From: Massilia eurypsychrophila
GTDB taxonomy: Bacteria > Pseudomonadota > Gammaproteobacteria > Burkholderiales > Burkholderiaceae_D
Length of the DNA stretch: 64,000 nt
Reading direction: 5' to 3'
NCBI RefSeq assembly: GCF_002760655.1
Contig: NZ_PDOC01000002.1
Location: 62,001-126,000 of the forward strand
Shown here: positions 1 to 29,761 of the stretch, piece after piece
Position numbering within the stretch: position 1 is the stretch's first letter
Layout: each line of letters begins with the position of its first letter
Made by a program: the position numbers and the translations under genes
Notes under the pieces: model-generated
Told to the model about the DNA's origin: nothing
Database searches by the model: none
The model's input: only the letters and a program-made list of their open reading frames with translations

Positions 1-1272
1 GCGGATGGGTTGCGCCAGTTCTACGTCGACCAGCGCCTCAAGCAGGTTCCAACTACGCCCGGCGGCGCGCCACAGGCAGCATCCGCCATGCCGGGCGGCC
101 CGATGTCGCCGAAGGTCGGCGGCCCTGATTGGATGCAGGCATTCCAAGCTGACCAGCCAGCGCCGGCCGCTCGCGCGCCGCAACAGGCCGCGCTGGGCGA
201 CCCGTACAGTCAGCGGATGGTGCTTGCCCAAGAGCTGCGCGGCGCCGGCCACCATGCCGAAGCTGACGCACAGGAAGCAGCGGCGCTTAAGTTCAAGCCG
301 AAGTACGAAACTAAGCCGCAGGTCGTGCGCGGGCCAGACGGTAGCCCGATGTTGGTGCAGACGGCCGATGACGGCACCGTGCGCCCGATCAGCGGCGGCT
401 ACGGGGTGGCTGAGAAACTCGACTTCCGCGACATGGGTGGCACGGTGGATGGCCTCGATCCTTACAGCGGCAAGAGACTGCAGAGCTTCACCAAGACAAA
501 GAGCTTTGCAGATCGCAACGCAGGCGCCCGCCTGCAATTCGACAAAGAGCAGGCGGTTGGCACCGGCCCCGACGCATCCGAGGCGATGATCGACGCCATC
601 GGCATGGGCAAGATGGCGCCACCATCCGGCTACGCGCTGCGCAACCCGAAGATGCTGCAGATGATGGAGCGCGTCGCGCAGAAATACCCTGAGTTCGACG
701 CGACCGAATACGACGGCAAGAAGCGAGCCATGCGGGATTTCACCACCGGCAGGCAGGGCGATTCGATCCGATCCTTCGCAGTGGCAACCGACCACCTCAC
801 GCAGTTGAAGGGGCTGATTGGCGCGCTCGACAACAAGGATATCCCGCTGGTCAATAAGTACGCCAACATCATTGCGCAGCAAACAGGCAGCACTGCGCCG
901 ACCAACTTCGACGCCGCGAAGGGCATCGTTGCCAAGGAGGTGCTGAAGTCGATCGTGGCCGGCGGCGGCGGCGTGGAGGAGCGGCAAGAGCTGGCGCACC
1001 TGCTCGACAACGCAAAGACCACAAAGCAGCTCAACGGTGTGGTCGACACCTATCTGCATTTGATGGGCGCGCAGAAGCAAGGCTTGGAGCGGCAATATGA
1101 ATTGTCGACCGGGCGGAAGGATGCGGCAACGCGGTTTAACTACAAATCCGACGCCGATCCTCATCCGCCTACTGCAGCCCAGCACTCCATCGTCGCACCG
1201 AATGGGAAAACGTACAGCTTCCCCGACGCCAAGGCGCTGGCCAACTTCAAACTCTCCGCGGGGCTTAAATAA
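1..1272 (+). CDS. Phage virion-type protein, 5' end outside window
   Basis: The frame is open at the left edge (codons GCG GAT GGG precede the first possible start, a TTG at 10), so this is probably the C-terminal part of a longer protein. About 420 residues are visible, beginning with an Ala/Pro/Gln-rich, disordered-looking stretch (about residues 10-65), then a mostly helical body. I recognise no enzymatic motif. Its stop overlaps the start of the next gene as TAATG, the tight spacing of a phage structural operon, and the next gene has the low-complexity, helical look of internal virion or DNA-ejection proteins. Assignment as a phage structural protein rests on that context and composition, not on a catalytic signature. 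Confidence 0.6.
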   Translation, partial: ADGLRQFYVDQRLKQVPTTPGGAPQAASAMPGGPMSPKVGGPDWMQAFQADQPAPAARAPQQAALGDPYSQRMVLAQELRGAGHHAEADAQEAAALKFKPKYETKPQVVRGPDGSPMLVQTADDGTVRPISGGYGVAEKLDFRDMGGTVDGLDPYSGKRLQSFTKTKSFADRNAGARLQFDKEQAVGTGPDASEAMIDAIGMGKMAPPSGYALRNPKMLQMMERVAQKYPEFDATEYDGKKRAMRDFTTGRQGDSIRSFAVATDHLTQLKGLIGALDNKDIPLVNKYANIIAQQTGSTAPTNFDAAKGIVAKEVLKSIVAGGGGVEERQELAHLLDNAKTTKQLNGVVDTYLHLMGAQKQGLERQYELSTGRKDAATRFNYKSDADPHPPTAAQHSIVAPNGKTYSFPDAKALANFKLSAGLK

Positions 1273-3377
1273 TGCCTGATTACGACAAACTGGCTGCGCA
1301 ATACGGGGCGTCCGACGACGACAAATACGACCGCCTGGCTGCGAAGTTTAGCGCCGCGCCGAAGACCAAGCCGTTCGGCCAGCAGCTCAACGACTCGATC
1401 GCCGACGTCCCGCGCCAGCTCGGCCTGACCGCACGCTACGGCCTGGAGGGCCTGGGCGACACGTTCGACGCCTTCGTCGGCAACCCGCTGCGCACGCTGG
1501 CCAGCCCGGTGCTGGGCAACAAACCGACCGCACGGACCGGCGCCGCGCTCGCCGACATAGCGGGCCTGCCGCAGCCGAGAACCGCCGGTGAGCGCGTCGT
1601 TGGTGACGCTGCCCGCATGGTGGCCGGTGGCGGCGGCATGCTGGGCGCCGCGTCGAAGGTGGCCGGCGCTACCACTGGCATGGCGCAAGGTGTCGGCCGC
1701 ATGCTGGCATCGAACCCGGCGCAGCAGCTGACATCGGCCGGCGCCGCGGGCGCGGCCGGCGGCTACACGCGCGAGACTGGCGGCAACGACACTTCGCAGA
1801 TGGTGGCGTCGCTGGCCGCTGGCGTGGCTACCCCGTTTGCCGTCAACGGTGCGATGCGCGCCGGGCAGTCGGCCGCCGGCGCCGCCCGCAACATGGTATC
1901 GCCGCGCGCGCCCTCCCCGGTGCAGATCGACATCACCATCAACAACGCGATCGAGCGCAGCGGCATGAACCTGTCGCAACTGCCGGCCGAAGTGGCGCAG
2001 GGCATCCGCGCCGACGTGTCCAAGGCTATGCAGATCGGCGACGACATTTCGCCTGCCGCCGTGAGCCGGCTGGTCGACTACCGGCTGACGGGCGCCACGC
2101 CGAACCGGGCAGGCCTGACGCTAGATCCGGCAGTCGTCACGCAGCAGCGCAACCTGGCCAAGCTGGGCATCAATAGCAAGGATGTCGCCGCGCAGCAGCT
2201 GGGCCAGATGCAGAACGCGAACGATCGCCAGCTGACGGCCGGCCTGAACACGTTGGGCGCCAATACCGCTGACCACGCGATCGCCGGCGGCGGTAAGGTG
2301 ATGGACGCGCTCGGCCAGCGCAACGACCGCGCAAAGGACATCATCGGCAACCTGTACCAGCGCGCGCGCGACACTGGCGGCCGGAGTGCGGCACTCGATC
2401 CGCACGCATTCACCAACCGCGCCAACAACCTGCTCGACGACGCGCTGCTGGGCGGGAAGTTGCCGGCCGACGTGCGCAACCTGCTCAACAAGGCCGCCGC
2501 CGGCGAGATGCCGCTGACGGTCGACGTCGCCGAGCAGTTCAAGACGCGCATCGGCGACCTGCAGCGCTCGACCTTCGATATGGCTGAGCGCAAGGCGCTG
2601 GGCATGGTGCGCAGCGCGCTGGACGACGCCCCGCTGCTGCCAGGACAGGAGATGGGCCGCGAGTCGATCGCCGCCTTCAACAAGGCGCGCGGCATGAACC
2701 GGGCATGGATGGGCATCGTCGACAAGACGCCGGCCCTGCAGGCTGTCCGCGACGGCATCGAGCCAGACAAGTTCGTGCAGCAATTCATCGTCGGCGCCGG
2801 CGCCAAGTCCAACGTGATGGACGTCGCCATGCTGAAGAACTCCGTGAAGGGCAATCCGGAGGCAATGACCGCCATCAAGGGGCAGATCACCAGCCACCTG
2901 AAGGCGCGGGCGCTCAATGGCGCCGAGGATGAGGTGGGCAACTTCAGCCAGTCGGCATACAACAAGGCGCTGAACGCGATCGGTGACCGCAAGCTGGCCC
3001 TGTTTTTCGACAAGCCGGCCATCGACCAGATGAGGGCAATCGGGCGGGTGGCCAGCTACGAGCAGTTCCAGCCAGCTGGCAGCGCGGTCAACAACTCCAA
3101 CACGGCCGGCACCGGCATGGCCGCCCTGCTCGACCGGATCGGCTCGAGCGCATTCCTGTCGAAGATTCCAGCCGGCAAGCTGCTGGCCGACCCGCTGCAG
3201 AACATCGCCATCGGCATGCAGGCCAAGCAATCGCTAAATGTGCCGCGCGCGCTGACCGATGGCACTCGGATGCCGCAGCCGGTGCCGCGTGGGCTGGCGA
3301 TGTCGCCGGCGGCGCTGATGGGAACTGAGGGCGAAGAGGAGCGCAAGCGGCGCGAGGCCGGCTTACTTTTTCCGTGA
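1272..3377 (+). CDS. Large phage internal virion / DNA-ejection-like protein
   Basis: 701 residues. The N-terminus contains a duplicated DKLAAQYG...YDRLAAKFS motif, a short repeat often seen at the start of podovirus-type internal virion proteins. A Gly/Ala-rich region (about residues 110-205) with hydrophobic stretches could insert in membrane. The remainder is predicted helical with many Asn/Ala/Leu heptads. No protease or lysozyme motif is visible. The start ATG overlaps the previous stop (TAATG), indicating translational coupling. Function as an ejection or internal head protein is inferred from size, composition and its place after another virion-type gene. Confidence 0.6.
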   Translation: MPDYDKLAAQYGASDDDKYDRLAAKFSAAPKTKPFGQQLNDSIADVPRQLGLTARYGLEGLGDTFDAFVGNPLRTLASPVLGNKPTARTGAALADIAGLPQPRTAGERVVGDAARMVAGGGGMLGAASKVAGATTGMAQGVGRMLASNPAQQLTSAGAAGAAGGYTRETGGNDTSQMVASLAAGVATPFAVNGAMRAGQSAAGAARNMVSPRAPSPVQIDITINNAIERSGMNLSQLPAEVAQGIRADVSKAMQIGDDISPAAVSRLVDYRLTGATPNRAGLTLDPAVVTQQRNLAKLGINSKDVAAQQLGQMQNANDRQLTAGLNTLGANTADHAIAGGGKVMDALGQRNDRAKDIIGNLYQRARDTGGRSAALDPHAFTNRANNLLDDALLGGKLPADVRNLLNKAAAGEMPLTVDVAEQFKTRIGDLQRSTFDMAERKALGMVRSALDDAPLLPGQEMGRESIAAFNKARGMNRAWMGIVDKTPALQAVRDGIEPDKFVQQFIVGAGAKSNVMDVAMLKNSVKGNPEAMTAIKGQITSHLKARALNGAEDEVGNFSQSAYNKALNAIGDRKLALFFDKPAIDQMRAIGRVASYEQFQPAGSAVNNSNTAGTGMAALLDRIGSSAFLSKIPAGKLLADPLQNIAIGMQAKQSLNVPRALTDGTRMPQPVPRGLAMSPAALMGTEGEEERKRREAGLLFP

Positions 3378-5227: not shown

Positions 5228-5440
5228 CTACCCGACTGTCGCCATCCACGCACGCACATCCTCAACGCGCCAGGCGGTGACGTTCTCCGACAGCTTGACC
5301 GGCGCCGGGAACGTCTTGGCTGCCACCTTGCGCCACAGCGTGGCCGCCGAGAACGGGATGATAGTGATAAGTTGTCGCTGCCGAACATAGCCGACCTCTG
5401 GCAGGGTGTAGCGCGATCCGTCTTCATTCGAGGCGCCCAT
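5228..5440 (-). CDS. AlpA family phage regulator
   Basis: 70 residues. The pattern IIPFSAATLWRKVAAKTFPAP...AWRVEDVRAWM is the Phage_AlpA winged helix-turn-helix (helix-turn-helix, PxPVKL wing, then W-x-x-x-[ED]-[VI]-x-x-W-[LIM]). The start ATG at 5440 is preceded by a perfect AGGAGG at good spacing. AlpA proteins activate integrase and excisionase genes of P4-like elements; this one is immediately upstream of an excisionase-like gene. It is transcribed away from the C4-like leader and small-ORF cassette. Confidence 0.8.
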   Translation of the reverse strand: MGASNEDGSRYTLPEVGYVRQRQLITIIPFSAATLWRKVAAKTFPAPVKLSENVTAWRVEDVRAWMATVG

Positions 5441-9203: not shown

Positions 9204-9503
9204 ATGAATGAGCAACAGAATTACCCCGGACAGCATGAACAAAAGACTCACCCGCTCGAGTGCAAGCGACGAACGCCGGCGGTGAGGGGGACCGAGAGAG
9301 ACCTAGCCTCTTCCCTGCCAACCGTAGGGATGTGCCGATGGGATACCCTGAGCCGCTTCGTGCCGATCAGCCGCGAGACCTGGCGCAAGCTCGTGAAGGC
9401 GGGGAAGGCTCCGAAGCCAGTGAAACTGTCCGAACGATGTACGATGTACTCAAATGCCGAGGTGCACAGGTGGATGAGCGATCCAACTGCATACCGTTCG
9501 TGA
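9204..9503 (+). CDS. Second AlpA family regulator
   Basis: 99 residues. The C-terminal half reads DTLSRFVPISRETWRKLVKAG, then KAPKPVKLSERCTMYSNAEVHRWM: helix-turn-helix, PxPVKL wing and W-x-x-x-[ED]-V-x-x-W-M ending, as in the Phage_AlpA family and clearly related to the AlpA at 5228-5440. The N-terminal 40 residues are polar and may not be part of the native protein: an in-frame ATG lies just before CRWDTL. AGGTGA precedes the ATG at 9204 with short spacing. No excisionase or integrase follows; the next genes are the HipA-like/DUF3037 pair. Confidence 0.7.
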   Translation: MNEQQNYPGQHEQKTHPLECKRRTPAVRGTERDLASSLPTVGMCRWDTLSRFVPISRETWRKLVKAGKAPKPVKLSERCTMYSNAEVHRWMSDPTAYRS

Positions 9504-9605: not shown

Positions 9606-10400
9606 ATGCTGCGCACCGTCACCGCGACTCGGTTTATCAAGCGTATGGGCAACGGCCGAACCTGGCCATGCCTGATCGAGTGTGAAGACGAGGAAGGAAA
9701 TAAGTTTGAGCTAGTCGTAAAATACTCTGAAAAGTTATTCGAACGCGAGAAAAATTTAGCGTTCGAAGCAATTGCTGCAATGTTAGCTGCCGATCTTTGC
9801 CTCCCTGTCCCGGAGCCGTTCGTTGTTCAAATAGAAGAAGACTTCATCGAGATCGTGCCGGACCGCGAAGTAAAAGCTGCCCTGCAATCGAGTTGTCGCA
9901 CTGCTTTTGGGTCACGTCTAGTGACCGGTTTCTCAGCGTGGCAGAATGGGCAGACCATCCCAAGGTCCATGGTCACAGCGGCAACCGAAATCTGCGTCTT
10001 TGATCAAATTATTGAGAACAGCGACCGTATCCCGAAGAACCCGAACTGCCAGTTTTTGGCTAACGATTTTTTAATCTACGATCATGAGCTCGCATTTACG
10101 CGTGTGCTTTTTTGGCGTGAACCGTGGGCGGAAGGTGGGCTCGACTCAATTGCGCGTAGGGATGAGCACATTTTTTCGAAACCTCATCTTAGCGAGGCGC
10201 CAGGCAACTTAGACCGTTTCATAGGGTGCTGGGAGGATCTTCAAGAAGATCGATTTGAACAATATAGGAACGCCATCCCACCAGAATGGCTTCAGAAACG
10301 GGAACATGCTGAGCAAGTCGATCGAATCTTCGCCTACCTTTCAGAAGCAAAAGCGAACATTCGTAAAATTGCCGAAAACGCATTAGAGGTGCTGAAATGA
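9606..10400 (+). CDS. HipA-like kinase (HipA_2 type)
   Basis: 264 residues from the ATG at 9606 (a TTG at 9597 is the alternative). Features of the stand-alone HipA-like kinase family: a beta-rich N-lobe with ELVVKYSEK, supplying a candidate ATP-binding lysine; the catalytic segment EICVFDQIIENSDR, where the Asp of N-x-D-R is the expected base; and LIYDHELAF as metal-binding Asp, followed by a helical C-lobe. It is about 60% the length of HipA toxins and lacks their N-terminal subdomain. Its stop overlaps the start of the DUF3037 gene (ATGA), and these two families are commonly adjacent. The sequence is visibly AT-richer than the surrounding chromosome, with AAA/ATT-rich codons, suggesting transfer. 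Substrate unknown; a toxin or defence role is inference. Confidence 0.8.
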   Translation: MLRTVTATRFIKRMGNGRTWPCLIECEDEEGNKFELVVKYSEKLFEREKNLAFEAIAAMLAADLCLPVPEPFVVQIEEDFIEIVPDREVKAALQSSCRTAFGSRLVTGFSAWQNGQTIPRSMVTAATEICVFDQIIENSDRIPKNPNCQFLANDFLIYDHELAFTRVLFWREPWAEGGLDSIARRDEHIFSKPHLSEAPGNLDRFIGCWEDLQEDRFEQYRNAIPPEWLQKREHAEQVDRIFAYLSEAKANIRKIAENALEVLK

Positions 10401-11281
10401 AAAAGCGTAATCACTACTCGTATTCGATTTTGAAATACGTTCACGACACTGCAACGGCGGAGTTTGTAAATGTAGGAGTGGCTGTTTATTCGGCAAAAGA
10501 CAATTTTTTCCAAGTGTCTTGCAGATCGACTGTCGGCCGACTTTCGGAGATGTTTCCGGACATGCAAGCGAGCTCATTCCGCGCGCTCATGCGTGGCCTG
10601 TCGAAGCGGTTTAATGAGCTTAGCGATGCGGTTTCTTCGCCGCTCGATCTCGAGGCCCAAAGCACTAATATCGAGCGCCTATTGGCATCGGTACTGCCTA
10701 AAGATGACAGTGCGTTAGTTTGGTCCGAGCCGTCGTTTGGGATGACGCACGACCCGCGAAAAACTTTGACAGACTTATTTTCCCGTTATGTGACCAAATA
10801 CGACCACTCTTCGTCACCACACAAACGCACAGATGAAGATATGTGGAAAGACTTCAAGAAGGAACTGGAGAATAGGCACATCTCTGCATATTTCGAAGAA
10901 AAAATTATCGAAGGCAAAGACGACGAAATAACGTTCAAATCCGCATGGAAAAATGGTTACTGGCATTGTGTTGAGCCTGTGTCTTTCGACCTAAGTGTTG
11001 CTGAGACGATCAGGGAGAAGGCACACAGAGTACTGGGTCAGATCACCAGCGTCTCAGACACGCCAGAGCGGTTCAAAGTTTACCTTTTGGTTGGCAAGCC
11101 TGGACGCGGGGCGCTGACGCCGGCTCTGGAGAAAGCGCTGGGCATTTTAGATAAACTCCCAGTTGAAAAGGAAATTTTCATGGAGGATGAGCGCGATCTG
11201 CTACTGGATAGATTGGCTGCAGAGATAAGTACACATAACCAGGAGAACGAGCGCCCTTCAATACTCTTGGACGCGGGCTGA
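10397..11281 (+). CDS. DUF3037 protein, partner of HipA-like kinase
   Basis: 294 residues. The N-terminus YSYSILKYVHDTATAEFVNVGVAVYS is the diagnostic DUF3037 motif (YS-[IVL]-[LV]-[RK]-Y-x-P/H-D...GE/AEF-x-N-[VI]-GV). The remaining 200 residues are a helical and mixed region without catalytic signature, containing WKNGYWHCVEPVSFDL and FKVYLLVGKPGRG. It is translationally coupled to the kinase, so the two probably act together as substrate/regulator and kinase. AT-rich like its partner. Whether it is antitoxin, target or second effector cannot be told from sequence. Confidence 0.75.
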   Translation: MKKRNHYSYSILKYVHDTATAEFVNVGVAVYSAKDNFFQVSCRSTVGRLSEMFPDMQASSFRALMRGLSKRFNELSDAVSSPLDLEAQSTNIERLLASVLPKDDSALVWSEPSFGMTHDPRKTLTDLFSRYVTKYDHSSSPHKRTDEDMWKDFKKELENRHISAYFEEKIIEGKDDEITFKSAWKNGYWHCVEPVSFDLSVAETIREKAHRVLGQITSVSDTPERFKVYLLVGKPGRGALTPALEKALGILDKLPVEKEIFMEDERDLLLDRLAAEISTHNQENERPSILLDAG

Positions 11282-11582
11282 CATCTCTTCACGGGTAAGC
11301 TGAGCATTTGTTTTTGCATCCATGTTTGCATCCATGAGCTGGCAAGGAAAATGCTAAAGCCATGATTCATGCGGCTTTCAAGCCACAATTATGCTCCACC
11401 TATCACCACCAAGAATATGCTTCAAGAAGTCGATTTACGTACTCTGCCCCGCGCTTTCCCTGTGAGAGCTTCGGGGCATTGTTCGTTTACGTGATGTTGC
11501 AGGCATGCGCTGACTACATCGACACCGTGCGCAGCGGCTAAGTATCCCAGTGAACTTCGGCATCGCCGCCCAGGAACGCCTC
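11282..11582. other. 300-bp stretch without supported gene
   Basis: A direct repeat of TGCATCCATG occurs at about 11318-11340. Short minus-strand readings (for example one ending GKRGAEYVNRLLEAYSWW near 11400) look mildly coding but lack a start and family. Probably the decayed edge of the accessory region. Confidence 0.4.
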
Positions 11583-11981
11583 CTACCGGCCCACCACCAC
11601 TGCAGAAAGGCTGTTCTCCGGCGTTTTCGTCTTGGTCGTGATGGTGCAGCTGGTAGCCTTGTCATCCAGCCGCTTTGCCAGTTGCATCCCGCCGTAGCCA
11701 CACCACAGCCACCGCCGGCCGTCATCCTTAGCGAACACAAACATCTGCGTACCCTTCGCCTGTTTGTCTGGTATTCGGTAGCCTTCCCGCTCTGGTGGAC
11801 CTTCCAACATCCCCGCCCCCGCCAAATGCTGCTGACTCGGCATCGTCACCCATCCAGCCACCTGACGCCCCGGCTTAAGCACGTCCTCCGTGAGTACCAC
11901 CGGACACGATGCCGCCATATCCCCGGCAACCGCCGCAGAGGTACAAGCGACAGCCAGCAGAGCACAGGAAAGTAGACGCAT
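11583..11981 (-). CDS. STY0301-type secreted protein (putative immunity)
   Basis: 132 residues from the ATG at 11981, with AAAGG ribosome-binding site; it starts 5 bases after the stop of the broken gene upstream. Signal peptide MRLLSCALLAVACTSAAVA, cleaved before GD. The mature protein has CPVVL near the N-terminus, RRWLWCGYGG in the middle and a late Cys (ATSCTITT), a layout I associate with the STY0301 family of small periplasmic proteins. Members commonly sit directly downstream of BPSL0067-type amidase genes, consistent with an immunity protein for a secreted cell-wall toxin. The adjacent toxin-like gene here is frameshifted. Confidence 0.6.
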   Translation of the reverse strand: MRLLSCALLAVACTSAAVAGDMAASCPVVLTEDVLKPGRQVAGWVTMPSQQHLAGAGMLEGPPEREGYRIPDKQAKGTQMFVFAKDDGRRWLWCGYGGMQLAKRLDDKATSCTITTKTKTPENSLSAVVVGR

Positions 11982-11986
11982 CTCAA

Positions 11987-12290
11987 TCACCTTTCAATCA
12001 CAGAGAACGCCCATGGGTTCCGACTCCGATTCGGCCACGTCCCATCCTCGCTTTGGGCATGTTGACGCGGGACTTCCATCAGCCGGTACCGCACCACCAG
12101 CGAAGCTTTGTACTGCTCGACTACGTAGAACCCAGCCCCACCGTGGGCCACGAAGATGGCGGCATGTTGCCCGGTGTCCGCAGTCGGATACCTCCTTCAA
12201 GTTTCTGGGAGTCCCATCTTGATTGCGATGCCAATGTGCAACCTTGCGCCCAGACAAATTTGGGGGCCTGTGCTGCCTGCCATGCTTCGA
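11987..12290 (-). pseudogene. BPSL0067-type gene, frameshifted remnant
   Basis: On the minus strand the 3' part reads YPTADTGQHAAIFVAHGG, then AGFYVVEQYKAS...NPWAFSVIER and stops at 11987. GKYP...G-x-HAAI(F/Y)L...G(I/F)-x-V-(W/V)-(D/E)-Q is the core of the BPSL0067 family (NlpC/P60-like amidase fold; the His is the catalytic one). Upstream of the YP the frame hits TGA, while another frame reads GARLHIGIAIKMGLPET, matching the G-[TI]-AIATF segment, so at least one frameshift separates the two. The N-terminal part with the catalytic Cys region is not recognisable. Dead toxin-like gene. Confidence 0.55.
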
Positions 12291-12392
12291 GGACCGTCGC
12301 TGGGGAGTTAGGCGAGATCTCATGGCCATCAGCATGGCTTCACGGCGAGGGAGGTTGACATTCGTTATCCAGTCCGGCTAGCGTAGCTTATT

Positions 12393-12438
12393 AAAGAAAG
12401 CTTTAATAAAGGAAGGGATCATTGAAGAAAGCTTTAAT
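12393..12438. repeat. Two copies of a 15-bp palindromic motif
   Basis: AAAGAAAGCTTTAAT (12393-12407) and GAAGAAAGCTTTAAT (12424-12438), each centred on the palindrome AAAGCTTT, are 31 bp apart (about three helical turns). They lie in an AT-rich gap upstream of the secreted protein gene at 12626. Possible paired operator, or leftover of a mobile element. Confidence 0.5.
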
Positions 12439-12625
12439 TGACGCGCTTCCGACGCCGACAGCCATGTTCGATCAGTGCCCAACGTTACGGCTTACAGATT
12501 GAAACTATTCTTACGGTGCATCGACAGCTTTTGACAACTATTGCTGCCACAATGTGAACATGCGTACCGATCAGGCCGAGGCCGCGCGATAGCATCTAAT
12601 CACTAATCTAAATCTGGAGACATAT

Positions 12626-13039
12626 ATGAAACTCGCTACCCAACACATCATGCGCATCGCCACGGTTCTCGCCTTGACTGCCGCGTCTGCATCCGCGTTC
12701 GCCCAAAGCGATGAGTATCGCCGTGGATACGCCGAGGGTTATGCCGCTGGCCAGCGCGCCGGCAACGGCGGCGGCAATGGCGACGGCCCAGGCTGGGGAC
12801 GTGTCCGCGTGGAAGAAGCTGACTACGGCGTGCGCGGCGCTATGTGCGACGCACGCCGCGCCGTGCGTAATGAAGTCGAGCGCAATAATGGTAACGTCCG
12901 CGCCAGCAACGAGCTGTGCGGCGATCCGGCCCGTAACCAAGAGAAGCGCCTCCGCATCGTCTACCGTTGCGGGAATAGCGAGCCGGTACGGGTTTTCCTT
13001 CGTGAAAACGAATCGACGCGCTTGACCTGCCGCCGCTGA
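12626..13039 (+). CDS. Small secreted protein, function unknown
   Basis: 137 residues. Signal peptide of about 27 residues (MKLATQHIMRIATVLALTAA ... SAFAQ). The mature part begins with a Tyr/Gly/Arg repeat-like stretch (YRRGYAEGYAAGQRAG), a glycine-rich linker and a Cys-containing domain with four cysteines (MCDARRAV, ELCGDP, YRCGN, LTCRR) that could form two disulfides in the periplasm. An AT-rich gap with a TCTGGAGACAT ribosome-binding region precedes the ATG, and a hairpin-T terminator follows. No family recognised. Confidence 0.6.
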   Translation: MKLATQHIMRIATVLALTAASASAFAQSDEYRRGYAEGYAAGQRAGNGGGNGDGPGWGRVRVEEADYGVRGAMCDARRAVRNEVERNNGNVRASNELCGDPARNQEKRLRIVYRCGNSEPVRVFLRENESTRLTCRR

Positions 13040-13066
13040 TCGCAGCAGCGCGAGGTAAGAATAATG

Positions 13067-13096
13067 AGCCGCGCACTGTGAAGTGAGCGGCTTTTT
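13067..13096 (+). terminator. Intrinsic terminator after the secreted protein
   Basis: AGCCGC (13067-13072) pairs with GCGGCT (13086-13091) around a 13-base loop and is followed by TTTTC. It lies 27 bases after the stop codon of the gene at 12626. Confidence 0.65.
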
Positions 13097-13236
13097 CAAA
13101 GGTGTGGTCGTTCCTTGTTCGGCTTGGTTAATTCACAAGCGCTGGAAGTCCTCCCGCCGCCTATGGACGGGAATTGGCAGCACGCAAAGCTATAGTTGCG
13201 CGAAATTATTTGGTCACCGCAGTACTCCGATCACCG

Positions 13237-13944
13237 TTACGGAGCCAGGTCGACCGAAACTTTTATCGACTTGTAAAAGATTGCGCTTTTCGCTTCAAAG
13301 CCAGAGTCGATTCCGAAGAACGTCCAAATTTCACCATTCGCGTCGCTCTTGACGGACAGGGGTAGCGTGCTCTTGAGTACCTTCGTCTGATACACCTGAG
13401 GCCCGCAGTTCGTGACCGCGTTTGCGACGTTGCCGAGCACTTGGGATGCTGGACCTGGCGTGGCTTGATTGCCGCGGTCCAGGTTAAGTTTGTACTCACC
13501 GTCAGTCAAAACGGTTTTCGGTTCGGTCGGCGACGCGCCCGCAACCACATAGACGCCCTCGCCTGGCGCACCGCCGACACCGAAGCAGCCCGAGGATTGA
13601 TTGCTTGCAATCTCTATTTCAAAGCTCAGCTTGTACAACGTCGAAGGCGCGTACCCGCTGAATTTCTTCTTGCTGTAAATAAAAAGATCGTCGCTGCGGT
13701 TTGTGCCGCCAGTGTAGTAAGCGCTGCCCGACAGCGGGGACGGCAAGGCACGCGACGCCCAGACAACGTCAGTCGGTTCGGTTTCAGCGTGATAGTCCGA
13801 GTAACCACCTTGCCAGCCATCTGCGCTGGTCGTGAACGTGCTGGCTATCTGAGGCGGCAGCGGGGTCGTGTCGTCGCCGCCACATGCGGCCAGGATGCAG
13901 GCGGACGCAATAATGCCTGCGATTTTTAATTTTTGAATAGCCAT
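13237..13944 (-). CDS. Putative lipoprotein
   Basis: 235 residues. N-terminus MAIQKLKIAGIIASACILAACGG with lipobox LAAC (Cys at about residue 21), so probably lipid-anchored; residues after the Cys are GGDD, compatible with inner-membrane retention or later secretion. The mature part is beta-rich with WQGGYSDYHAE, FEIEIASNQSSGCFGVGG and WTFFGIDSGFE, a jelly-roll or carbohydrate-binding-like look. No named domain assigned. GGAAAT precedes the start. Convergent with the secreted-protein gene; downstream of it lies an unrelated regulator gene on the same strand. Confidence 0.6.
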   Translation of the reverse strand: MAIQKLKIAGIIASACILAACGGDDTTPLPPQIASTFTTSADGWQGGYSDYHAETEPTDVVWASRALPSPLSGSAYYTGGTNRSDDLFIYSKKKFSGYAPSTLYKLSFEIEIASNQSSGCFGVGGAPGEGVYVVAGASPTEPKTVLTDGEYKLNLDRGNQATPGPASQVLGNVANAVTNCGPQVYQTKVLKSTLPLSVKSDANGEIWTFFGIDSGFEAKSAIFYKSIKVSVDLAP

Positions 13945-14118
13945 CGGATTTCCTGTGTGGTAATGCGAAAACCTGAGGATATGTGGGCGATTAGACTACC
14001 GGTAGGCAAGATTTGTCAGGGAATTGTCGCGCAATTGTAGGTTGTCGACCGCGCCGGCTCTGCCGTCCGATGTGAGTTTGCTCGGCATCCCGACAAGAAA
14101 AGAATTCGCGCGCGGCAG

Positions 14119-15186
14119 CTACCCGAACGCCTCCTCCAGCGACAGGATCTTCCCCGTATCGGCCGCATCGTATCCGGTCAGCTCGTTGACCCGCAGGTGA
14201 TACTCGGGCAGCTGCAAGATGGTGATGAACTGGCGGATCAGCGGATCATCCACCGCATCCTGGCGCACCGCGAAAAAATACCGTTCGCGCACCAGCGGAA
14301 TGAAATCGAGGTTGAACCGCTGCGCCGCCGTGCGCACGCCGATGCCGACGTCGGCCATGCCGCTGGCGATGTACGCGGCCACTGCCGAATGGGTGAACTC
14401 GGCGCTGTTGACGCCATTGATGTCGTGCACGTTGATGTCGCCGTCGTCGAGCATCAGCTCGAGCAGCTTGCGCGTGCCCGACCCGATCTGCCGGTTGACG
14501 AAACGAATATCGGTGCGCACCAGGTCTTCCAGCCCGCGGATCTTCAAGGGATTGCCGGGCGCGACGAACAGCCCCTGGTGGCGCACCGCCAAATGGATCA
14601 GGCAATGCTCGGCAGGATCGAGCCAGCGCGTGTACCAGTCCATCGCCGCCGGCTGGAAGTGGCCGGTCGGCACGTGGAAGCCGGCCAGGTCGCATTCGCG
14701 CCGCGACAGCGCCGCCACCGCATCGGTACTGTTGCGATAACGCAACTCCACCGGCATCTCCACCTTGTTCAGATGGACCATCAGCGCCGCCACCGCGAAG
14801 CCGTGGCTGGCGTCCATGCGGATCATGCGCAGCCGGTCCGGCGCCATCTTGCCCAGTTCAACTTCCAGTTCCGACGCCAGGCTCTCGAGCGTGGGCGACA
14901 GCCGCGCGGCGATGCGGCGGTCGGCCCAGACCAGCTTTTGCGCCAGCGGCGTCAAGGTGGTGCCGCGCCCGCGGCCGGTCTGCAGCAGGCTGGCGCCGAA
15001 CAACTGTTCAGCATCGCGCAACAAGCCCCAGGCGTAGCGGTAGGACAGCTTGACCGACTTGGCCGCCTGCGCGATCGAGCCGGTGTCCTGGACCGCCAGC
15101 AGCAGTCCGAGCAGTGCGGCGGTGTCGAGCGGCGCCGAGGCGCCGAAGCGAATTTCCCAGTGCGGGCGGATTTGAACTTTGAACAT
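14119..15186 (-). CDS. One-component regulator: ModE-like HTH plus PBP-like domain
   Basis: 355 residues. Residues 15-80 (LGLLLAVQDTGSIAQAAKSVKLSYRYAWGLL...) form the winged helix-turn-helix of ModE/LysR type. Residues about 120-320 form a periplasmic-binding-protein-like sensor, with VRTDIRFVNRQIGSGTRKLLE and ASGMADVGIGVRTAAQRF as the ligand-site motifs of the PBP_like family. Regulators of this architecture sit beside molybdate/tungstate transport and formate dehydrogenase genes and are thought to sense the oxyanion. It is divergent from the OFA transporter with a 121-bp gap holding two matching palindromes, one over its own start codon, implying autoregulation. A tungstate or molybdate ligand is inferred from the TupBCA genes nearby; formate is an alternative. 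Confidence 0.75.
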   Translation of the reverse strand: MFKVQIRPHWEIRFGASAPLDTAALLGLLLAVQDTGSIAQAAKSVKLSYRYAWGLLRDAEQLFGASLLQTGRGRGTTLTPLAQKLVWADRRIAARLSPTLESLASELEVELGKMAPDRLRMIRMDASHGFAVAALMVHLNKVEMPVELRYRNSTDAVAALSRRECDLAGFHVPTGHFQPAAMDWYTRWLDPAEHCLIHLAVRHQGLFVAPGNPLKIRGLEDLVRTDIRFVNRQIGSGTRKLLELMLDDGDINVHDINGVNSAEFTHSAVAAYIASGMADVGIGVRTAAQRFNLDFIPLVRERYFFAVRQDAVDDPLIRQFITILQLPEYHLRVNELTGYDAADTGKILSLEEAFG

Positions 15187-15204
15187 ATGTTTAAAATAGC
15201 CTAT
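15185..15204. promoter_or_regulatory. Operator-like site over the regulator start codon
   Basis: ATATGTTTAAAATAGCCTAT matches the perfect palindrome at 15261-15280 at 17 of 20 positions and includes the regulator's ATG (15184-15186 on the plus strand). Binding here would block its own gene. Confidence 0.55.
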
Positions 15205-15258
15205 TTCGAACCAAATTGCATCGTGATACTCTGCAAAAATAATAAAAGTGGTCGGGAA

Positions 15259-15280
15259 AATATGCTTAAAAAAGCATATT
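15259..15280. promoter_or_regulatory. Perfect palindrome upstream of OFA transporter
   Basis: Arms AATATGCTT and AAGCATATT (9 bp each) around AAAA, 28 bases before the transporter ATG. Size and symmetry suit a dimeric winged-HTH regulator, presumably the divergent one; the sequence differs from the enterobacterial ModE box. Confidence 0.65.
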
Positions 15281-15307
15281 CATAAAACGTAAAAAATGGA
15301 GTGAGAC

Positions 15308-16957
15308 ATGGCTTTATTGGATGTACTAGACAAGGAACGCACCATTGCGGCTCCGAGTTTTAACCGTTGGCTGGTGCCGCCCGCGGCGCTGGCCATTCAC
15401 CTGTGCATCGGTATGGCGTATGGCTTCTCCGTGTTCTGGCTGCCGCTGTCGCGCGCGATCGGCATCAAGGATCCGGTCGTTTGCGCCAAGGAAATGAGCC
15501 TGCTGGCCGAACTGTTCACCACCACCTGCGACTGGAAAATCTCGTCGCTCGGCTGGATGTACACGCTGTTCTTCGTCTTCCTCGGCTCGTCCGCTGCACT
15601 GTTCGGCGGCTGGCTCGAACGCGCCGGCCCACGCAAGGCCGGTGTCGTGTCGGCGCTGTGCTGGTGCGGCGGCCTGATCATCTCGGCGATCGGCATCTAC
15701 AAGCACCAGATGTGGATGATGTGGCTCGGCTCCGGCGTGATCGGCGGCATTGGCCTCGGCCTCGGCTACATCTCGCCCGTCTCGACCCTGATCAAATGGT
15801 TCCCGGACCGCCGCGGCATGGCGACCGGCATGGCCATCATGGGCTTCGGCGGCGGCGCCGTCATCGGCGCGCCGATGGCTGCCGAACTGATGAAACACTT
15901 CGCCACCCCGACCTCCGTCGGCGTGTGGGAAACCTTCGTCGTCATGGCCGTCATCTACTTCGTCTTCATGATGGCCGGCGCCCTGTCGTACCGCGTGCCG
16001 GCCTCGGGCTGGAAGCCGGCCGGCTGGACGCCGCCGGTCAACGCCAAGACCAACACCATGATTACGCAGCGCCACGTGCACGTCAAACGCGTCTGGGGCA
16101 TTCCGCAGTTCTGGCTGATCTGGTGGGTACTGTGCCTGAACGTGACCGCCGGCATCGGCATCCTGGGCATGGCGTCGCCACTGCTGCAGGAAATCTTCGG
16201 CGGCAAGCTGATCGGCGTCGACCTGGCGTTCAACGACCTGTCGGTCGCGCAGAAAGCGTCGATCGCGGCGGTCGGCGCCAGTTTCGCCGGCCTGCTGTCG
16301 CTGTTTAACATCGGTGGTCGCTTCGTCTGGGCATCGTGTTCGGATTACCTCGGCCGCAAGCCGACCTACTCGATCTTCCTGGTGCTCGGCTTCATCCTGT
16401 ACATGTCGATTCCAAGTTCGGCCCACGCCAACAACCTGTTCCTGTTCGTCGCCGCGTTCTGCATCATCCTGTCGATGTACGGCGGCGGTTTCGCCACCGT
16501 GCCGGCCTACCTGGCCGACCTGTTCGGCACCCAGATGGTGGGGGCGATCCACGGCCGCCTGCTGACGGCATGGTCGGCGGCCGGCGTGTTCGGTCCGGTG
16601 CTGGTCAACTACATCCGCGAATACCAGATCGCCAATGGTGTGCCGAAGGCGCAGGCGTATGATGTAACGATGTATGTGCTGGCCGGGATGATTGCGCTGG
16701 GCCTGCTGTGCAACCTGATGGTGCGTCCGATCGCCGACAAGTACTTCATGACCGACGACGAACTCGCTGTCGAGAAGAAGCTGGCGCACGACCGCGATGT
16801 CAGCGTCAACGCCGGCATGGCCGGCAAGGGCGGCGGCGGCGTGGTGGCAATCAACCGCAACCCGGCTGTCACGGCCTTTGCCTGGGCCGCAGTGGGCATC
16901 CCGCTGTCGATCGGCATCTGGCTGACCTTGCAAAAAGCAGCCGTGTTCTTTAAGTAA
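15308..16957 (+). CDS. OFA family oxalate/formate transporter (MFS)
   Basis: 549 residues, inner-membrane major facilitator with about 12-14 hydrophobic segments. The start region LVPPAALAIHLCIGMAYGFSVFWLPLSR and later SPVSTLIKWFPDRRGMATGMAIMGFGGGA are characteristic of the OFA (oxalate:formate antiporter) family. The cytosolic loop near residue 240 (NAKTNTMITQRHVHVKRVW) and SCSDYLGRKPTY (MFS loop motif) are also typical. It is longer than OxlT (about 420) because of an N-terminal extension and a C-terminal pair of segments around AVTAFAWAAVGIPLSIGIWL. GGAGTGA precedes the ATG. Being followed directly by formate dehydrogenase genes, formate (or oxalate/formate) uptake is the likely role. Confidence 0.85.
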   Translation: MALLDVLDKERTIAAPSFNRWLVPPAALAIHLCIGMAYGFSVFWLPLSRAIGIKDPVVCAKEMSLLAELFTTTCDWKISSLGWMYTLFFVFLGSSAALFGGWLERAGPRKAGVVSALCWCGGLIISAIGIYKHQMWMMWLGSGVIGGIGLGLGYISPVSTLIKWFPDRRGMATGMAIMGFGGGAVIGAPMAAELMKHFATPTSVGVWETFVVMAVIYFVFMMAGALSYRVPASGWKPAGWTPPVNAKTNTMITQRHVHVKRVWGIPQFWLIWWVLCLNVTAGIGILGMASPLLQEIFGGKLIGVDLAFNDLSVAQKASIAAVGASFAGLLSLFNIGGRFVWASCSDYLGRKPTYSIFLVLGFILYMSIPSSAHANNLFLFVAAFCIILSMYGGGFATVPAYLADLFGTQMVGAIHGRLLTAWSAAGVFGPVLVNYIREYQIANGVPKAQAYDVTMYVLAGMIALGLLCNLMVRPIADKYFMTDDELAVEKKLAHDRDVSVNAGMAGKGGGGVVAINRNPAVTAFAWAAVGIPLSIGIWLTLQKAAVFFK

Positions 16958-16970
16958 GCTCACATCGAGC

Positions 16971-17034
16971 GTCAATGAGTCATTGACACTGCAACAAACC
17001 TTCGCCAGGGCGAGCCGTCGCGCCTGCCCTGGCG
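16971..17034. promoter_or_regulatory. Two inverted repeats before the formate dehydrogenase genes
   Basis: GTCAATGA-G-TCATTGAC (16971-16987) is a perfect 8-bp-arm palindrome 14 bases after the transporter stop. CGCCAGGGC (17003-17011) and GCCCTGGCG (17026-17034) form a 9-bp stem with a 14-base loop 30 bases before the next ATG. No T run follows, so these look like an mRNA-processing, attenuation or operator feature rather than a simple terminator. Confidence 0.45.
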
Positions 17035-17064
17035 CTCGTTCCTCTCGTTCTACCGGACAAAGCA

Positions 17065-18764
<1,700 letters not shown>

Positions 18765-18768
<4 letters not shown>

Positions 18769-21584
18769 ATGCGATATCCAGATTGAACCGCGTGGCCCTG
18801 CAAGGCGTGGCCGTCACTTTCGACATCAACGGCCGCACGGTCGAAGCGCTGTCGACCGAAACGCTGATCGAAGTGGCCGACCGCGAGGGGATCGAGATCC
18901 CGCGCCTGTGCTACCGCGAAGGCATGGAAGTGGTCGGCAACTGCCGCTCCTGCATGGTCGAGATCAACGGCGAACGCGTGCTCGCGCCCTCGTGCTGCCG
19001 CTACCCGACCGAAGGCATGAAGGTCGTCACCGACAGCCCGCGGGCGGTGGCGTCGCAAAAGATGGTGCTCGAGCTGCTGCTGTCGGACATGCCGGAAACC
19101 GAATACACGCGCCACAACGAAGTGGACTTCTGGGCGCGCAAGCTCGCCGTCGGCAAGCCGCGCTTTGCCGCGCGCCGCCAGCCGCGGCAAGACGCGTCGC
19201 ACGCGGCCATCACCGTCAACCTCGACGCCTGCATCCAGTGCACCCGCTGCGTGCGCGCCTGCCGCGACGAACAGGTCAACGACGTCATCGGCCTGGCGTT
19301 TCGCGGCGACCACGCCAAGATCGTGTTCGACATGGACGACCCGATGGGCAACTCCACCTGCGTGGCCTGCGGCGAATGCGTGCAGGCCTGCCCGACCGGC
19401 GCCCTGATGCCGGCGCGCGAAGTGGCGCTGACGGTGCCCGACAAGAAGGTCGATTCGGTCTGCCCTTACTGCGGCGTTGGCTGCCAGCTGACCTACAACG
19501 TCAAGGACAACAAGATCCTGTTCGTCGAGGGCCGCGACGGCCCGGCCAACCACGAGCGCCTGTGCGTCAAGGGCCGCTACGGCTTCGACTACGCGCACCA
19601 TCCGCACCGCCTGACGGTGCCGCTGATCCGCCGCGCCGACGCGCCGAAGTCGGGCGACTTCGTGATGGACCCCGACCGCGTGATGGACGTGTTCCGCGAA
19701 GCGACCTGGGAAGAAGCGCTGGCGCTGGCCGGCGGCACCCTGTCGAACATCCGCGACACCCACGGCAAGAAATCGCTGGCCGGCTTCGGTTCGGCCAAGG
19801 GCAGCAACGAGGAAGCCTACCTGTTCCAGAAGCTGGTGCGCACCGGATTTGGCAGCAACAACGTCGACCACTGCACCCGCCTGTGCCACGCCTCGTCGGT
19901 GGCGGCGCTGCTGGAAGGCATCGGATCGGGCGCGGTGTCGAACCCGGTGATGGACGTGACGAAAGCCGAAGTGGTGATCGTCATCGGCGCCAACCCGACC
20001 GTCAACCACCCGGTGGCCGCCACCTGGATCAAGAACGCCGTCAAGAACGGCACCAAGCTGGTGGTGTGCGATCCGCGCCGCTCGGACCTGGCGCGCATGT
20101 CGCACCGCTACCTGCAGTTCAAGCCCGACACCGACGTCGCCATGCTCAACGCGATGATGCACGTGATCGTCCACGAGAACCTGGTCGACGCCGACTTCAT
20201 CGCCAGCCGCACCATCGGCTACGATGAACTGAAGCAGAATGTCGAAGGCTACAGCCCCGAGCTGATGGCGCCGATCTGCGGCATCGACGCCGACACGCTG
20301 CGCTACGTGGCGCGCCTGTACGCCACCTCGAAGGGCTCGATGATCCTGTGGGGGATGGGCATTTCGCAGCACATCCACGGCACCGACAACGCGCGCTGCC
20401 TGATCGCGCTGGCCTTGATGACGGGCCAGATCGGCCGTCCCGGCACCGGCCTGCATCCACTGCGCGGCCAGAACAACGTGCAGGGCGCCTCCGACGCCGG
20501 CCTGATCCCGATGATGTTCCCGGACTACCAGCGGGTCGACAATCCGGCCGTGCGCGCCAAGTTCGAAGCGGCCTGGAACACGCCGCTCGACGGCACGCCT
20601 GGCCTGACCGTCGTCGAGATCATGCACGCCATCAAGGCGGGACAGATCCGCGGCATGTACATCATGGGCGAGAACCCGGCCATGTCGGACCCCGACGCCA
20701 ACCACGCGCGCGAGTCGCTCGCCGCGCTCGAGCACCTGGTGGTGCAGGACATCTTCCTGACCGAGACCTGCTACCTGGCCGACGTCATCCTGCCAGCTTC
20801 CGCGTTCCCGGAAAAGACCGGCAGCTTCACCAACACCGATCGCACGGTGCAGATGGGCCGCCAGGCGATCGACCCGCCGGGCCAGGCCAAGCAGGACCTG
20901 TGGATCTTGCAGGAGTTGGCCAGGCGCCTCGGCCTGGACTGGAACTACCAGCACGTGTCGGAAGTGTTCGACGAGATGCGCCACACCATGCCCAGCATCG
21001 GCGGCATCACGTGGGATCGCCTCGAGCGCGAACACTCCGTCACCTACCCGTGCGTGGCCGAAGGCGACCCGGGCGACCCGGTGGTGTTTATCGAGACGTT
21101 CCCGCGCGACTCCGGCCGCGCGCGCTTCGTCCCGGCCGACATCATCCCGGCCGACGAGCGGCCCGACACGGCCTACCCGCTGGTCCTGATCACCGGGCGC
21201 CAGCTGGAGCACTGGCACACCGGCAGCATGACGCGCCGCACCGCGGTGCTCGACGCCCTCGAGCCCGATCCGGTGGCGCTGGTGCACCCGCTCGACCTGG
21301 CCGGCATGGGCGGCAAGCCGGGCGACGTCATCACCATCGAGTCGCGCCGCGGCAAGGTAACGCTGTACGCGCGGGCCGACGACAGTTCGCCGCGCGGCGC
21401 CATCTTCGTGCCGTTCTGCTACTACGAGGCAGCCATCAACAAGCTGACCAACGCCGCGCTCGACCCGTTCGGCAAGATCCCCGAGTTCAAGTACTGCGCG
21501 ATCCGCGTGGCGCTGGGCGGCGAGGTCGAAGCGCAGAGCAGCTACGGCGGCGGCCAGGTATTGCGGAGGTTGACACCGGCGTGA
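18765..21584 (+). CDS. NAD-dependent formate dehydrogenase alpha (catalytic) subunit
   Basis: 939 residues from the ATG at 18765, coupled to the beta gene. Order of domains: [2Fe-2S] ferredoxin-like (CYREGMEVVGNCRSCMVEI...SCCR, residues 46-90); NuoG-type His/Cys region; two [4Fe-4S] sites (CIQCTRCVRACRDEQ and CVACGECVQACPTG); an Fe4S4 site CPYCGVGCQLTYN; then the molybdopterin oxidoreductase body with metal-ligand Cys in CTRLCHASSV followed by the conserved His, and a C-terminal molydopterin-binding domain (TGRQLEHWHTGSMTRR). It oxidises formate to CO2. Cys rather than Sec is the ligand. The neighbouring tungstate transporter suggests W as the metal. No FdhD/FdsC-type chaperone gene is in the cluster. 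Confidence 0.92.
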
Positions 21585-21606
21585 CGATCGATCCACAGGG
21601 CGCCTG

Positions 21607-22314
21607 ATGCCCATCCTCGACGCCATCCGCGCGGCCTTCGCCCTGCTGCTGTCGGGCGACGCCGCCCTGTGGACCATCGTCTGGATTTCGCTCAAGACGA
21701 GCGTCGTCGGCCTGCTGCTGGCCGCGCCGGTCGCCATCGTGCTCGGCTACGCGATCGCCAGCTTCCGCTTTGGCGGGCGGCGCCTGGTGATCTGGCTGGT
21801 GCAGGCGTCGCTGTCGATGCCGACCGTGCTCATTGGCCTGCTGCTGTACCTGATGCTGTCGCGCCAGGGGCCGATGGGCGGCCTGCAATGGCTGTTTTCG
21901 CAAAGCGGCATCATCGCCGGCCAGTGCCTGATCGCGCTGCCGGTGCTGCTGGCGTATACGCTGGCGGCGGTGCAGGCGGCCGATCCGCGCTACGCCGAAA
22001 CGGCGATCACCCTCGGCGCCGGCCGCTGGCGCGTGATGGCGACGGTGCTGTTCGAGGCGCGCTTTGGCGTCATGGCCGCCGTCATCAGCGGCTTTGGGCG
22101 AGTGATTTCGGAAGTCGGCTGCGCCCTCATGGTGGGCGGGAACATCGCCGGCGAAACGCGCACCATCACCACCGCCATCGCGCTCGAAACGAGCAAGGGC
22201 GAGTTCGCCCAGGGCATTGCGCTGGGCATTGTGCTGATCGTCGTCGCGCTGGCGATGAACGGCGCGCTGATGCTGGCGCAGGGTGACGCCCACGCCGCGC
22301 GGGGGCGGCTATGA
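21607..22314 (+). CDS. tupB: Tungstate ABC transporter permease
   Basis: 235 residues, inner membrane, about five to six helices. The EAA loop (TAITLGAGRWRVMATVLFEARFGV) is typical of ABC oxyanion permeases of the Tup/Mod type; SEVGCALMVGGNIAGETRTITTAIALE matches the conserved C-terminal segment of TupB. It starts 22 bases after the formate dehydrogenase alpha stop, so it is co-transcribed with it, and overlaps the ATPase gene by four bases. Assignment to tungstate rather than molybdate rests mainly on the TupA-type binding protein encoded two genes later. Confidence 0.85.
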   Translation: MPILDAIRAAFALLLSGDAALWTIVWISLKTSVVGLLLAAPVAIVLGYAIASFRFGGRRLVIWLVQASLSMPTVLIGLLLYLMLSRQGPMGGLQWLFSQSGIIAGQCLIALPVLLAYTLAAVQAADPRYAETAITLGAGRWRVMATVLFEARFGVMAAVISGFGRVISEVGCALMVGGNIAGETRTITTAIALETSKGEFAQGIALGIVLIVVALAMNGALMLAQGDAHAARGRL

Positions 22315-22970: not shown

Positions 22971-22980
22971 AAGGACCACC

Positions 22981-23790: not shown

Positions 23791-23802
23791 CCTGAGGCAG
23801 CT

Positions 23803-24291: not shown

Positions 24292-24312
24292 GGTGTGCCT
24301 CCGATAAGTCGT

Positions 24313-27922: not shown

Positions 27923-28089
27923 GAGTTTCCTCGTGGATGAATTGCAGCGCCTATGGGATGGGACGGAATATCGACCAGGCGATGGGCAAGCAGCGAAGAG
28001 CGCGCCCGTGGACACTCTGAGTGACGAGGTGATCAGTTAACAGTAACACACTAGTTCGCGCCGGCCGGTTCGCCATGCCGGCCGCGCCA

Positions 28090-28458: not shown

Positions 28459-28472
28459 TGCTTGCCTTTCAT

Positions 28473-29672: not shown

Positions 29673-29761
29673 TTGATTCTCCAAAATGCATGAGTGCATC
29701 AACAACTACAAAAAATGCTCACGTTGTGTGAGTCGTGCTCGTCAGCGGCACCATTCTATCA

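Follow-up and report, generated by a model that had tools for sequence, protein, structure and literature searches.

A predicted HipAD-type kinase and DUF3037 gene pair at the end of a tRNA-Met-integrated prophage in Massilia eurypsychrophila

Introduction

What does a two-gene unit encoding a HipA-like kinase and a DUF3037 protein do at the very end of a prophage? The question is raised by a locus of Massilia eurypsychrophila (assembly GCF_002760655.1, contig NZ_PDOC01000002.1), which lies in a stretch of 64,000 nucleotides analyzed here as a whole and referred to as the window (contig positions 62,001 to 126,000). An earlier note on this DNA considered a toxin-antitoxin or anti-phage role attractive, but regarded the biology of the two families as not settled. 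The latter assessment is out of date, as defence and toxicity are described for relatives in sections of two reports, and the suggested role gains support from the same source, being in print for these relatives (PMC12548924, PMC13092281).

According to the sections of the first report used here, the pair of the Retron-Sda1 operon, called PDC-M66, defends against phage Bas51: deletion of the kinase gene abolishes defence, deletion of the DUF3037 gene is toxic, and the HTH, ncRNA and RT components are dispensable for Bas51 defence, the pair alone being sufficient (PMC12548924). The second report, again in the sections drawn upon, renames system DS-6 of DefensePredictor HipAD, states that its defence requires a catalytic kinase residue, presents AlphaFold3 predictions of a complex and of DNA binding, and proposes a toxin-antitoxin system (PMC13092281). 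Within these sections, neither PMC12548924 nor PMC13092281 names the phage trigger or the kinase target of HipAD.

Results

The window carries an intact kinase gene overlapping a DUF3037 gene

Coordinates of the pair and of its surroundings are compiled in Table 1. The earlier note had described two genes overlapping by ATGA and richer in AT than the surrounding chromosome. Indeed, the overlap is present, and the GC content of the pair is 0.490 compared to 0.655 for the chromosome at positions 14000-64000; windows of 1,676 bases within the latter region have a mean of 0.655 (sd 0.027) and a minimum of 0.572, i.e. the pair falls below the lowest of them. An in-frame TTG also exists at 9597, and the starts of relatives correspond to 9606.

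Table 1. Features of the locus and orphan partner genes of relatives. Plain positions refer to the window, C2 positions to the contig and the L numbers in the table to branch-A partner loci on genome or viral contigs.
Feature	Position	Strand	Remark
tRNA-Met	C2:52790-52866		left of window
Other 25-bp repeat copy	G000 C2:52850-52874		9.1 kb left of window
Tyrosine integrase	C2:52978-54303		adjoins tRNA-Met
701-aa prophage protein	1272..3377	+	relatives in Pseudomonas phage PAE2 (35%) and EBPR podovirus 1 (28%)
AlpA excisionase, first AlpA	5228..5440	-	PF05930, 30.3 bits, clearer match
AlpA-like excisionase/regulator, second AlpA	9204..9503	+	PF05930, 21.4 bits vs cut-off 21
hipA-like kinase (predicted toxin/effector)	9606..10400	+	ATG 9606, stop 10400, 264 aa, intact ORF
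ATGA stop/start overlap	10397..10400	+	couples kinase and partner genes
hipD-like DUF3037 protein (predicted antitoxin)	10397..11281	+	294 aa, intact ORF
attR	11395..11419 (C2:73395-73419)	+	25-bp exact copy of tRNA-Met 3' end and following bases
Orphan branch-A DUF3037 partners, first four	L083:7998-8843; L087:8001-8852; L088:2545-3405; L111:7998-8852		
Orphan branch-A DUF3037 partners, last three	L115:2788-3612; L116:7992-8816; L179:7971-8858		

The kinase was assigned to HipA_2 by Pfam (PF20613, E=6.8e-18, 65.2 bits at a cut-off of 27) and to PDC-M66A by PADLOC (1.5e-66; match over residues 4-263 in the 267-aa version of the ORF that begins at TTG 9597). Its AlphaFold2 model (pLDDT 96.1) resembles the folds of PI4K-IIalpha (Z 15.6), CtkA (3akk, Z 14.7) and Legionella HipT (8ezr, Z 12.0). 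Residues K39, E54, D133, N138, D140, R141, N147, D159 and H160 are all intact. D140 and D159 correspond to the Asp residues of the ENSDR and YDHELAF motifs, which had been predicted to serve catalysis and metal binding, respectively, and both are invariant in 31/31 kinases covering all branches of the family (see below). K39 (beta3 Lys), D140 (NxDR Asp), N147 and D159 (DH Asp) are also invariant in 54 aligned kinases of branch A, namely that of the window and 53 of the 89 whose starts could be assigned, after removal of short and near-duplicate sequences; the 89 stem from a set chosen by partner (best 80 of 127 genome-contig and 24 viral relatives). Across branches the catalytic set is kept in 30-31 of the 31 kinases, the single gap being a kinase whose called start removes that part. 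Degenerate kinase residues, named beforehand as a sign against the proposal, were looked for and not seen in either alignment.

Signals for expression were sparse. The promoter scan gave no match directly upstream of the kinase gene; the one promoter-like site of the region falls within that gene, compared to 1.8 sites in shuffles. No inverted-repeat operator beyond a 9-nt palindrome precedes the kinase gene, and a terminator scan at the pair gave little result.

The partner comprises a second domain with a possible restriction-endonuclease-like fold

The assignment of the partner to DUF3037, made earlier on the basis of its N-terminus, holds: Pfam detects DUF3037 at residues 9-132 (PF11236, E=2.7e-17, 63.5 bits) and PADLOC calls the protein PDC-M66B (2.3e-84, residues 5-282). 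The structural model (pLDDT 92.0, pTM 0.62) consists of two parts, with a separate C-terminal domain encompassing about residues 143-287. Searches of the PDB by sequence gave nothing significant for either kinase or partner. When the partner model was compared with the PDB by structure, the matches listed fell on residues 143-287 and left no entry for the N-terminal DUF3037 domain. Cdn1 and BstEII were the best among them (Z 8.6), and the list further included PspGI (Z 7.6), Ecl18kI (Z 7.2), Can2, XPF and NucC with other alpha/beta folds mixed in, Z being close to the level that the tool labels common. In the partner alignment, D176 is found in 53/60 and E193 in 52/60 sequences. The position +2 after E193 is occupied by V, L, I or M, never by Lys, and the (D/E)xK of PD-(D/E)XK nucleases was not seen at E193. 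Conserved in this domain are W184-K185-N186-G187-x-W189-H190 and S196-x-D198, whose placement on the fold is our own reading. Going by the model, the C-terminal domain is possibly a DNA-binding, non-cleaving domain with a restriction-endonuclease-like fold and no obvious catalytic triad.

Kinase and partner occur side by side and fall into three branches

Adjacency of the two families, mentioned in the earlier note, was assessed from both sides. A search with PDC-M66A (E up to 1e-10) in 399 genomes of the order and 398 of the phylum yielded matches at 18 places in 17 genomes and at 17 places in 17 genomes, respectively, corresponding to 31 different places including the window. A DUF3037-like ORF lies beside the kinase in 31/31 places, on the same strand and at -50 to +89 nt (starts chosen by script), and Pfam confirmed DUF3037 in all six of these partners tested as well as in HipD of Escherichia phage PhiR5_1. 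In the reverse search with PDC-M66B, 21 places were found in 20/399 genomes of the order; a kinase adjoins in 20 of them and the other is at a contig end. Finally, a search with an alignment of branch-A partners retrieved 127 relatives on genome contigs, of which the best 80 were kept, and 24 on viral contigs. These 104 loci comprise 94 with a kinase upstream, 3 at contig ends and 7 without a kinase; they are not independent, since both the viral and the genome records include near-duplicates and some of the genomes are probably represented among the 31 as well. Viral contigs found with the kinase (13) were all part of this set already, and none was devoid of a partner. The adjacency is thus borne out by 31/31 kinase places, 20/21 partner places of the order and 94/104 partner-chosen loci (best 80 of 127 plus 24 viral). 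The overlap of kinase and partner genes amounts to 4 nt in 87 of 89 branch-A pairs measured in the latter set (best 80 of 127 genome and 24 viral relatives), the 89 being those of the 94 pairs for which both starts were assignable, as opposed to 5 with no assignable start.

Trees of the 31 kinases, and of 33 upon addition of PhiR5_1 HipA and a copy on a Pseudorhodobacter plasmid, show three groups with ultrafast bootstrap values of 99-100 each; these branches had first been named A, B and C by eye and were tested by tree afterwards. Branch A contains 8/31 kinases including that of the window, with partners of about 280-295 aa except for L005 (truncated) and L009 (cut by the contig end). The 12 places of branch B have partners of about 130-142 aa lacking the second domain, and branch C comprises 11/31 kinases and the E. 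coli phage HipA, with partners of about 270-290 aa. Hence, the kinases of the window (branch A) and of PhiR5_1 (branch C) are in different clades, the same clade not being required for HipAD membership; identity is 24.5% between the kinases and 14.8% between the partners. With PDC-M66B, two full-length branch-A partners scored 1.4e-87 and 2.8e-64, a truncated branch-A partner 1.1e-35, those of branch C 3.8e-16 to 2.7e-23 and of branch B 7e-10. Because of these scores per branch, the PDC-M66 models seem to describe branch A.

Mobile elements were probed by tblastn. The window kinase had no relative among 50,697 phage records (E 1e-5) and matched 2 plasmid records, whereas 20 plasmid and 3 phage records contained relatives of a branch-C kinase used as query. 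The window partner gave one weak match in phage records. A scan of genome contigs with a single kinase sequence as query returned no relatives.

In the 20-kb loci of branch B (L066, L067, L069-L077), partners are short, some flanking genes are shared and defence neighbours are few. Shared flanking ORFs numbered 11 and 5 for species pairs within two different genera, 7 for two genera belonging to the same family, and 0-2 in most other comparisons; the branch-A loci L060 and L061, which are from one genus, share one ORF beyond the pair. Branch B may be a domesticated, non-defence relative of chromosomal-looking setting. Residence in conserved housekeeping loci, which had been named as a finding that would contradict a toxin-antitoxin or anti-phage role, may accordingly hold for branch B only, and not for the window pair, which is on branch A and in a prophage.

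The pair is located inside the right end of a prophage at tRNA-Met

Both marks of integration in a tRNA gene, an integrase beside tRNA-Met and a direct repeat at the far end, are present. Counted from the base following the left repeat copy to the end of the right copy, the element spans 20,545 bp (20.5 kb), and 113 bp separate the pair from attR. Between the repeats, genes for a helicase, a primase, three large proteins without Pfam or PHROG family and two AlpA proteins were found. Placement of the pair directly after a second AlpA gene was confirmed, but the AlpA match is weak (Table 1); this gene is the next one upstream of the kinase, at a distance of 102 bp. Among 17 prophage proteins scanned with PHROGs, no head, tail or terminase family was detected, which is weak evidence because several of the 17 matched no family. 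Together, integrase, helicase, primase, att repeat, the podovirus-related 701-aa protein and the absence of recognized head, tail and terminase genes speak for a decayed prophage, as had been proposed. Large prophage proteins without Pfam or PHROG family are encoded at L058:17634-19709 (691 aa), L079:1220-2773 (517 aa) and window 1272-3377 (701 aa); the 691-aa protein had no relative in phage records.

The left flank and the tRNA are present in 3/4 other genomes of the genus. Two of these relatives were followed past the tRNA; their sequence differs there, and agreement with the window resumes only at about 29.9 kb in G402 and 33.2 kb in G399. A clean empty site was not found in the genus relatives followed past the tRNA, the region to the right of it being variable. 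Chromosomal sequence right of attR (window 11420-29900) is also missing there in the two relatives, and therefore a larger variable region surrounds the prophage. At the tRNA-Met hotspot (G000 C2:52790-52866; L225), genome G400 of the genus has sequence resembling the start of the integrase gene described here after the same tRNA, with 83% identity over about 2 kb including the flank. No branch-A kinase was detected in the 4 other genomes of the genus searched, one of which is 82% complete. In Massilia polaris (L090), the pair is followed by an AlpA gene whose product is 59% identical over 66 residues to the first AlpA of the window, and an integrase is present as well.

Branch-A pairs often adjoin restriction-modification genes

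The earlier note had suggested tabulating defence neighbours. Restriction-modification (R-M) genes, defined as HsdM, HsdS or MmeI-like, were detected by phmmer (1e-8) with seeds from branch-A loci that were checked by Pfam, except for one HsdM seed (L083) outside this check, which PADLOC calls a type I methyltransferase. Branch A often adjoins such genes: in 23/101 loci, near-duplicates included (best 80 of 127 plus 24 viral), an R-M gene is located directly upstream of the kinase gene and on the same strand. In equal-size loci of 20 kb, R-M genes were present in 3/6 cases for branch A (L060, L063, L064), 0/11 for branch B and 0/1 for branch C, a comparison in which the branch-A seeds may favour branch A. 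The nearest ORFs of branch A (138 from 48 loci) matched 246 PADLOC families with up to 12 members each, type I subunits leading, and those of branch B (104 from 11 loci) matched 4 families with at most 2 members each; the samples were drawn differently (3 versus up to 10 ORFs per locus, crude ORF calling), making this a contrast rather than a test, and from the branch-A sample 6/144 ORFs of >900 aa were excluded, among them MmeI-like neighbours. Of 19 viral contigs measuring at least 20 kb, 12 have the branch-A pair no more than 3 kb from one end (3.0 expected, P 2.6e-6), a figure weakened by near-duplicates, metagenome contigs and predicted boundaries; 4 of the 12 (L180-L183) have R-M genes there. 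In L141 (4503-8864) and L147 (4497-8858) the gene order is hsdM-hsdS-hipA-hipD. The last 4-7 bases of hsdS are shared with the kinase gene as called, which points to a single operon.

A description of HipAD embedded in R-M loci was not found in the literature searched, which excluded bioRxiv and most subscription journals, and we do not claim that it is unpublished; Payne et al. 2024 may well describe it.

Kinase genes are broken or missing at some partner loci

Of the 104 partner loci (best 80 of 127 genome and 24 viral relatives), 14 have lost the kinase or carry a broken one and none has a broken partner, with 4 further loci starting too near a contig edge for judging the kinase. This asymmetric decay is what would be expected of a kinase that does harm once its partner is gone. 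However, the loci were selected and ordered by their partner score, a procedure biased towards intact partners. Also counting against it, L005, one of the 31 kinase-chosen places, has a truncated partner beside an intact kinase; in the same 31, the kinase genes of L003 and L016 contain a stop and that of L009 a frame change (by eye).

Two of the orphan partners, L088 and L111, keep a C-terminal kinase stub running into the partner start (tblastn E 0.04 and 0.045; 14.1 and 23.6 bits). The gene upstream of the orphan encodes a TIR protein in L088, an AlbA/Schlafen-type protein in L087, SIR2-like and HerA-like proteins in L111 (by eye), HigB/HigA-like proteins in L115 and L116 (by eye), and a short protein after a fused HsdM-HsdS in L083. 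On its own, the excess of orphan partners, 7/101 assessable loci (best 80 of 127 plus 24 viral) versus 0/31 and 0/13 viral contigs, is not convincing.

The window pair compared with known systems

Judged by sequence, the window pair is a member of the HipAD/PDC-M66/DS-6 type: a HipA_2 kinase with intact kinase residues is followed directly 3' and on the same strand by a DUF3037 partner. Both PADLOC PDC-M66 models cover the window proteins nearly full length (1.5e-66, 2.3e-84), and no difference was found. Phage PhiR5_1, which has an annotated HipA toxin and HipD antitoxin next to cI, shares the gene order of HipA_2 kinase and DUF3037 protein, the 4-nt overlap and the (pro)phage location; it differs by belonging to branch C, by the low identity given above, and by its position beside cI instead of AlpA and attR. 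In PhiR5_1 (L080:3962-5535), hipAD lies directly after cI on the same strand and could thus be expressed in the lysogen. The Retron-Sda1 pair, as far as described in the sections of PMC12548924 used, has the same two domains and the same PADLOC call, but stands beside a type III retron. A reading as retron effector was dropped, no reverse transcriptase family being found among the prophage proteins scanned (some short ORFs were outside the scan). DS-6 was compared by description: in the sections of PMC13092281 used, DS-6B is described with DUF3037 and DUF1829, and the latter is absent by Pfam from the window partner and from PhiR5_1 HipD. With HipBA and HipBST the window pair shares the kinase fold (Z 14.7 for CtkA, Z 12.0 for HipT), but its kinase gene comes first and the DUF3037 partner second. 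HipBA proper was also rejected: Pfam matches of the neighbours include no HipB-like antitoxin, and the upstream gene is AlpA-like.

Discussion

The HipAD kind has already been tested in E. coli by others, and the window pair is a new, well-preserved example of it. With a probability of roughly 0.78, we read the pair as a toxic kinase that its partner restrains, with a role in defence, carried as cargo of a partly deleted prophage integrated at tRNA-Met; we infer that it is active. The HipA-like kinase with its PI3/4-kinase-related fold would be the effector. Its DUF3037 partner, translated from a shared mRNA via start/stop coupling, would keep the kinase inactive, and the second domain of the partner may bind DNA. 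A signal of phage infection would then free the kinase, which would phosphorylate a host target and stop growth before the phage multiplies. By analogy with HipA and HipT, this target might be a translation factor or a tRNA synthetase. Against this reading count the distance from the HipAD of the E. coli phage (24.5% and 14.8% identity, other branch) and the lack of a kinase relative among the 50,697 phage records (E 1e-5); moreover, the pair resides in a degraded prophage without a promoter match directly upstream and could be unexpressed.

A place so close to attR (113 bp), in a decayed prophage whose head and terminase genes are not recognized while both genes of the pair are intact, would also suit a stabilizing (addiction) toxin-antitoxin module that keeps the prophage in the chromosome, with defence incidental or absent in the window pair. 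The toxin/antitoxin logic of relatives, as given in the sections used, points the same way (PMC12548924), but relatives protect against phage (PMC12548924, PMC13092281, in the sections used), and the R-M and other defence neighbourhoods of branch A are not needed for pure addiction. We regard addiction as a possible, though not a probable, explanation of the window pair. A dead or silent HipAD remnant in a decaying prophage, which the lack of a promoter match directly upstream and of head or terminase families among the prophage proteins scanned might suggest, is improbable: both frames are full length and retain all catalytic residues, whereas kinases elsewhere are sometimes broken or gone (14/104; best 80 of 127 genome and 24 viral relatives). 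Least of all do we expect a conserved chromosomal regulator that serves housekeeping signalling and not conflict, a role that branch B may have. The shared flanking genes of some branch-B loci (11, 7 and 5 ORFs in the closest comparisons) and their few defence neighbours (4 PADLOC families for 104 ORFs) are in line with such a function. Yet the window pair belongs to branch A (bootstrap 99-100) and resides in a prophage, no branch-A kinase was found in the 4 other genus genomes searched, and branch-A neighbours match 246 PADLOC families for 138 ORFs, which makes this reading highly improbable.

A more far-reaching idea, which we put forward tentatively and consider unlikely as it stands, is that HipD acts as sensor. 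It would be a DNA-binding pseudo-nuclease that watches the DNA or the state of the neighbouring R-M system and releases the kinase when R-M fails. Branch-A HipAD would then serve type I and MmeI-like R-M operons as a fail-safe, comparable to PrrC in EcoprrI, which acts when R-M as first line fails. HipD could persist after loss of the kinase, next to effectors of other kinds (TIR; by eye SIR2-HerA and HigB/A-like). The window copy would be a free-standing one that protects the lysogen.

Returning to a toxin-antitoxin pair with a role in defence, the window pair represents a well-preserved prophage HipAD on a branch apart from the named HipAD of the E. coli phage. In the sample seen, the family splits by surroundings into three branches: A with R-M genes and prophage ends, B with a chromosomal-looking setting and a short partner, and C with the E. 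coli phage HipAD. These three branches offer comparisons that bear on the signal sensed by HipD, the substrate of the kinase and the reason for the missing second domain in branch B.
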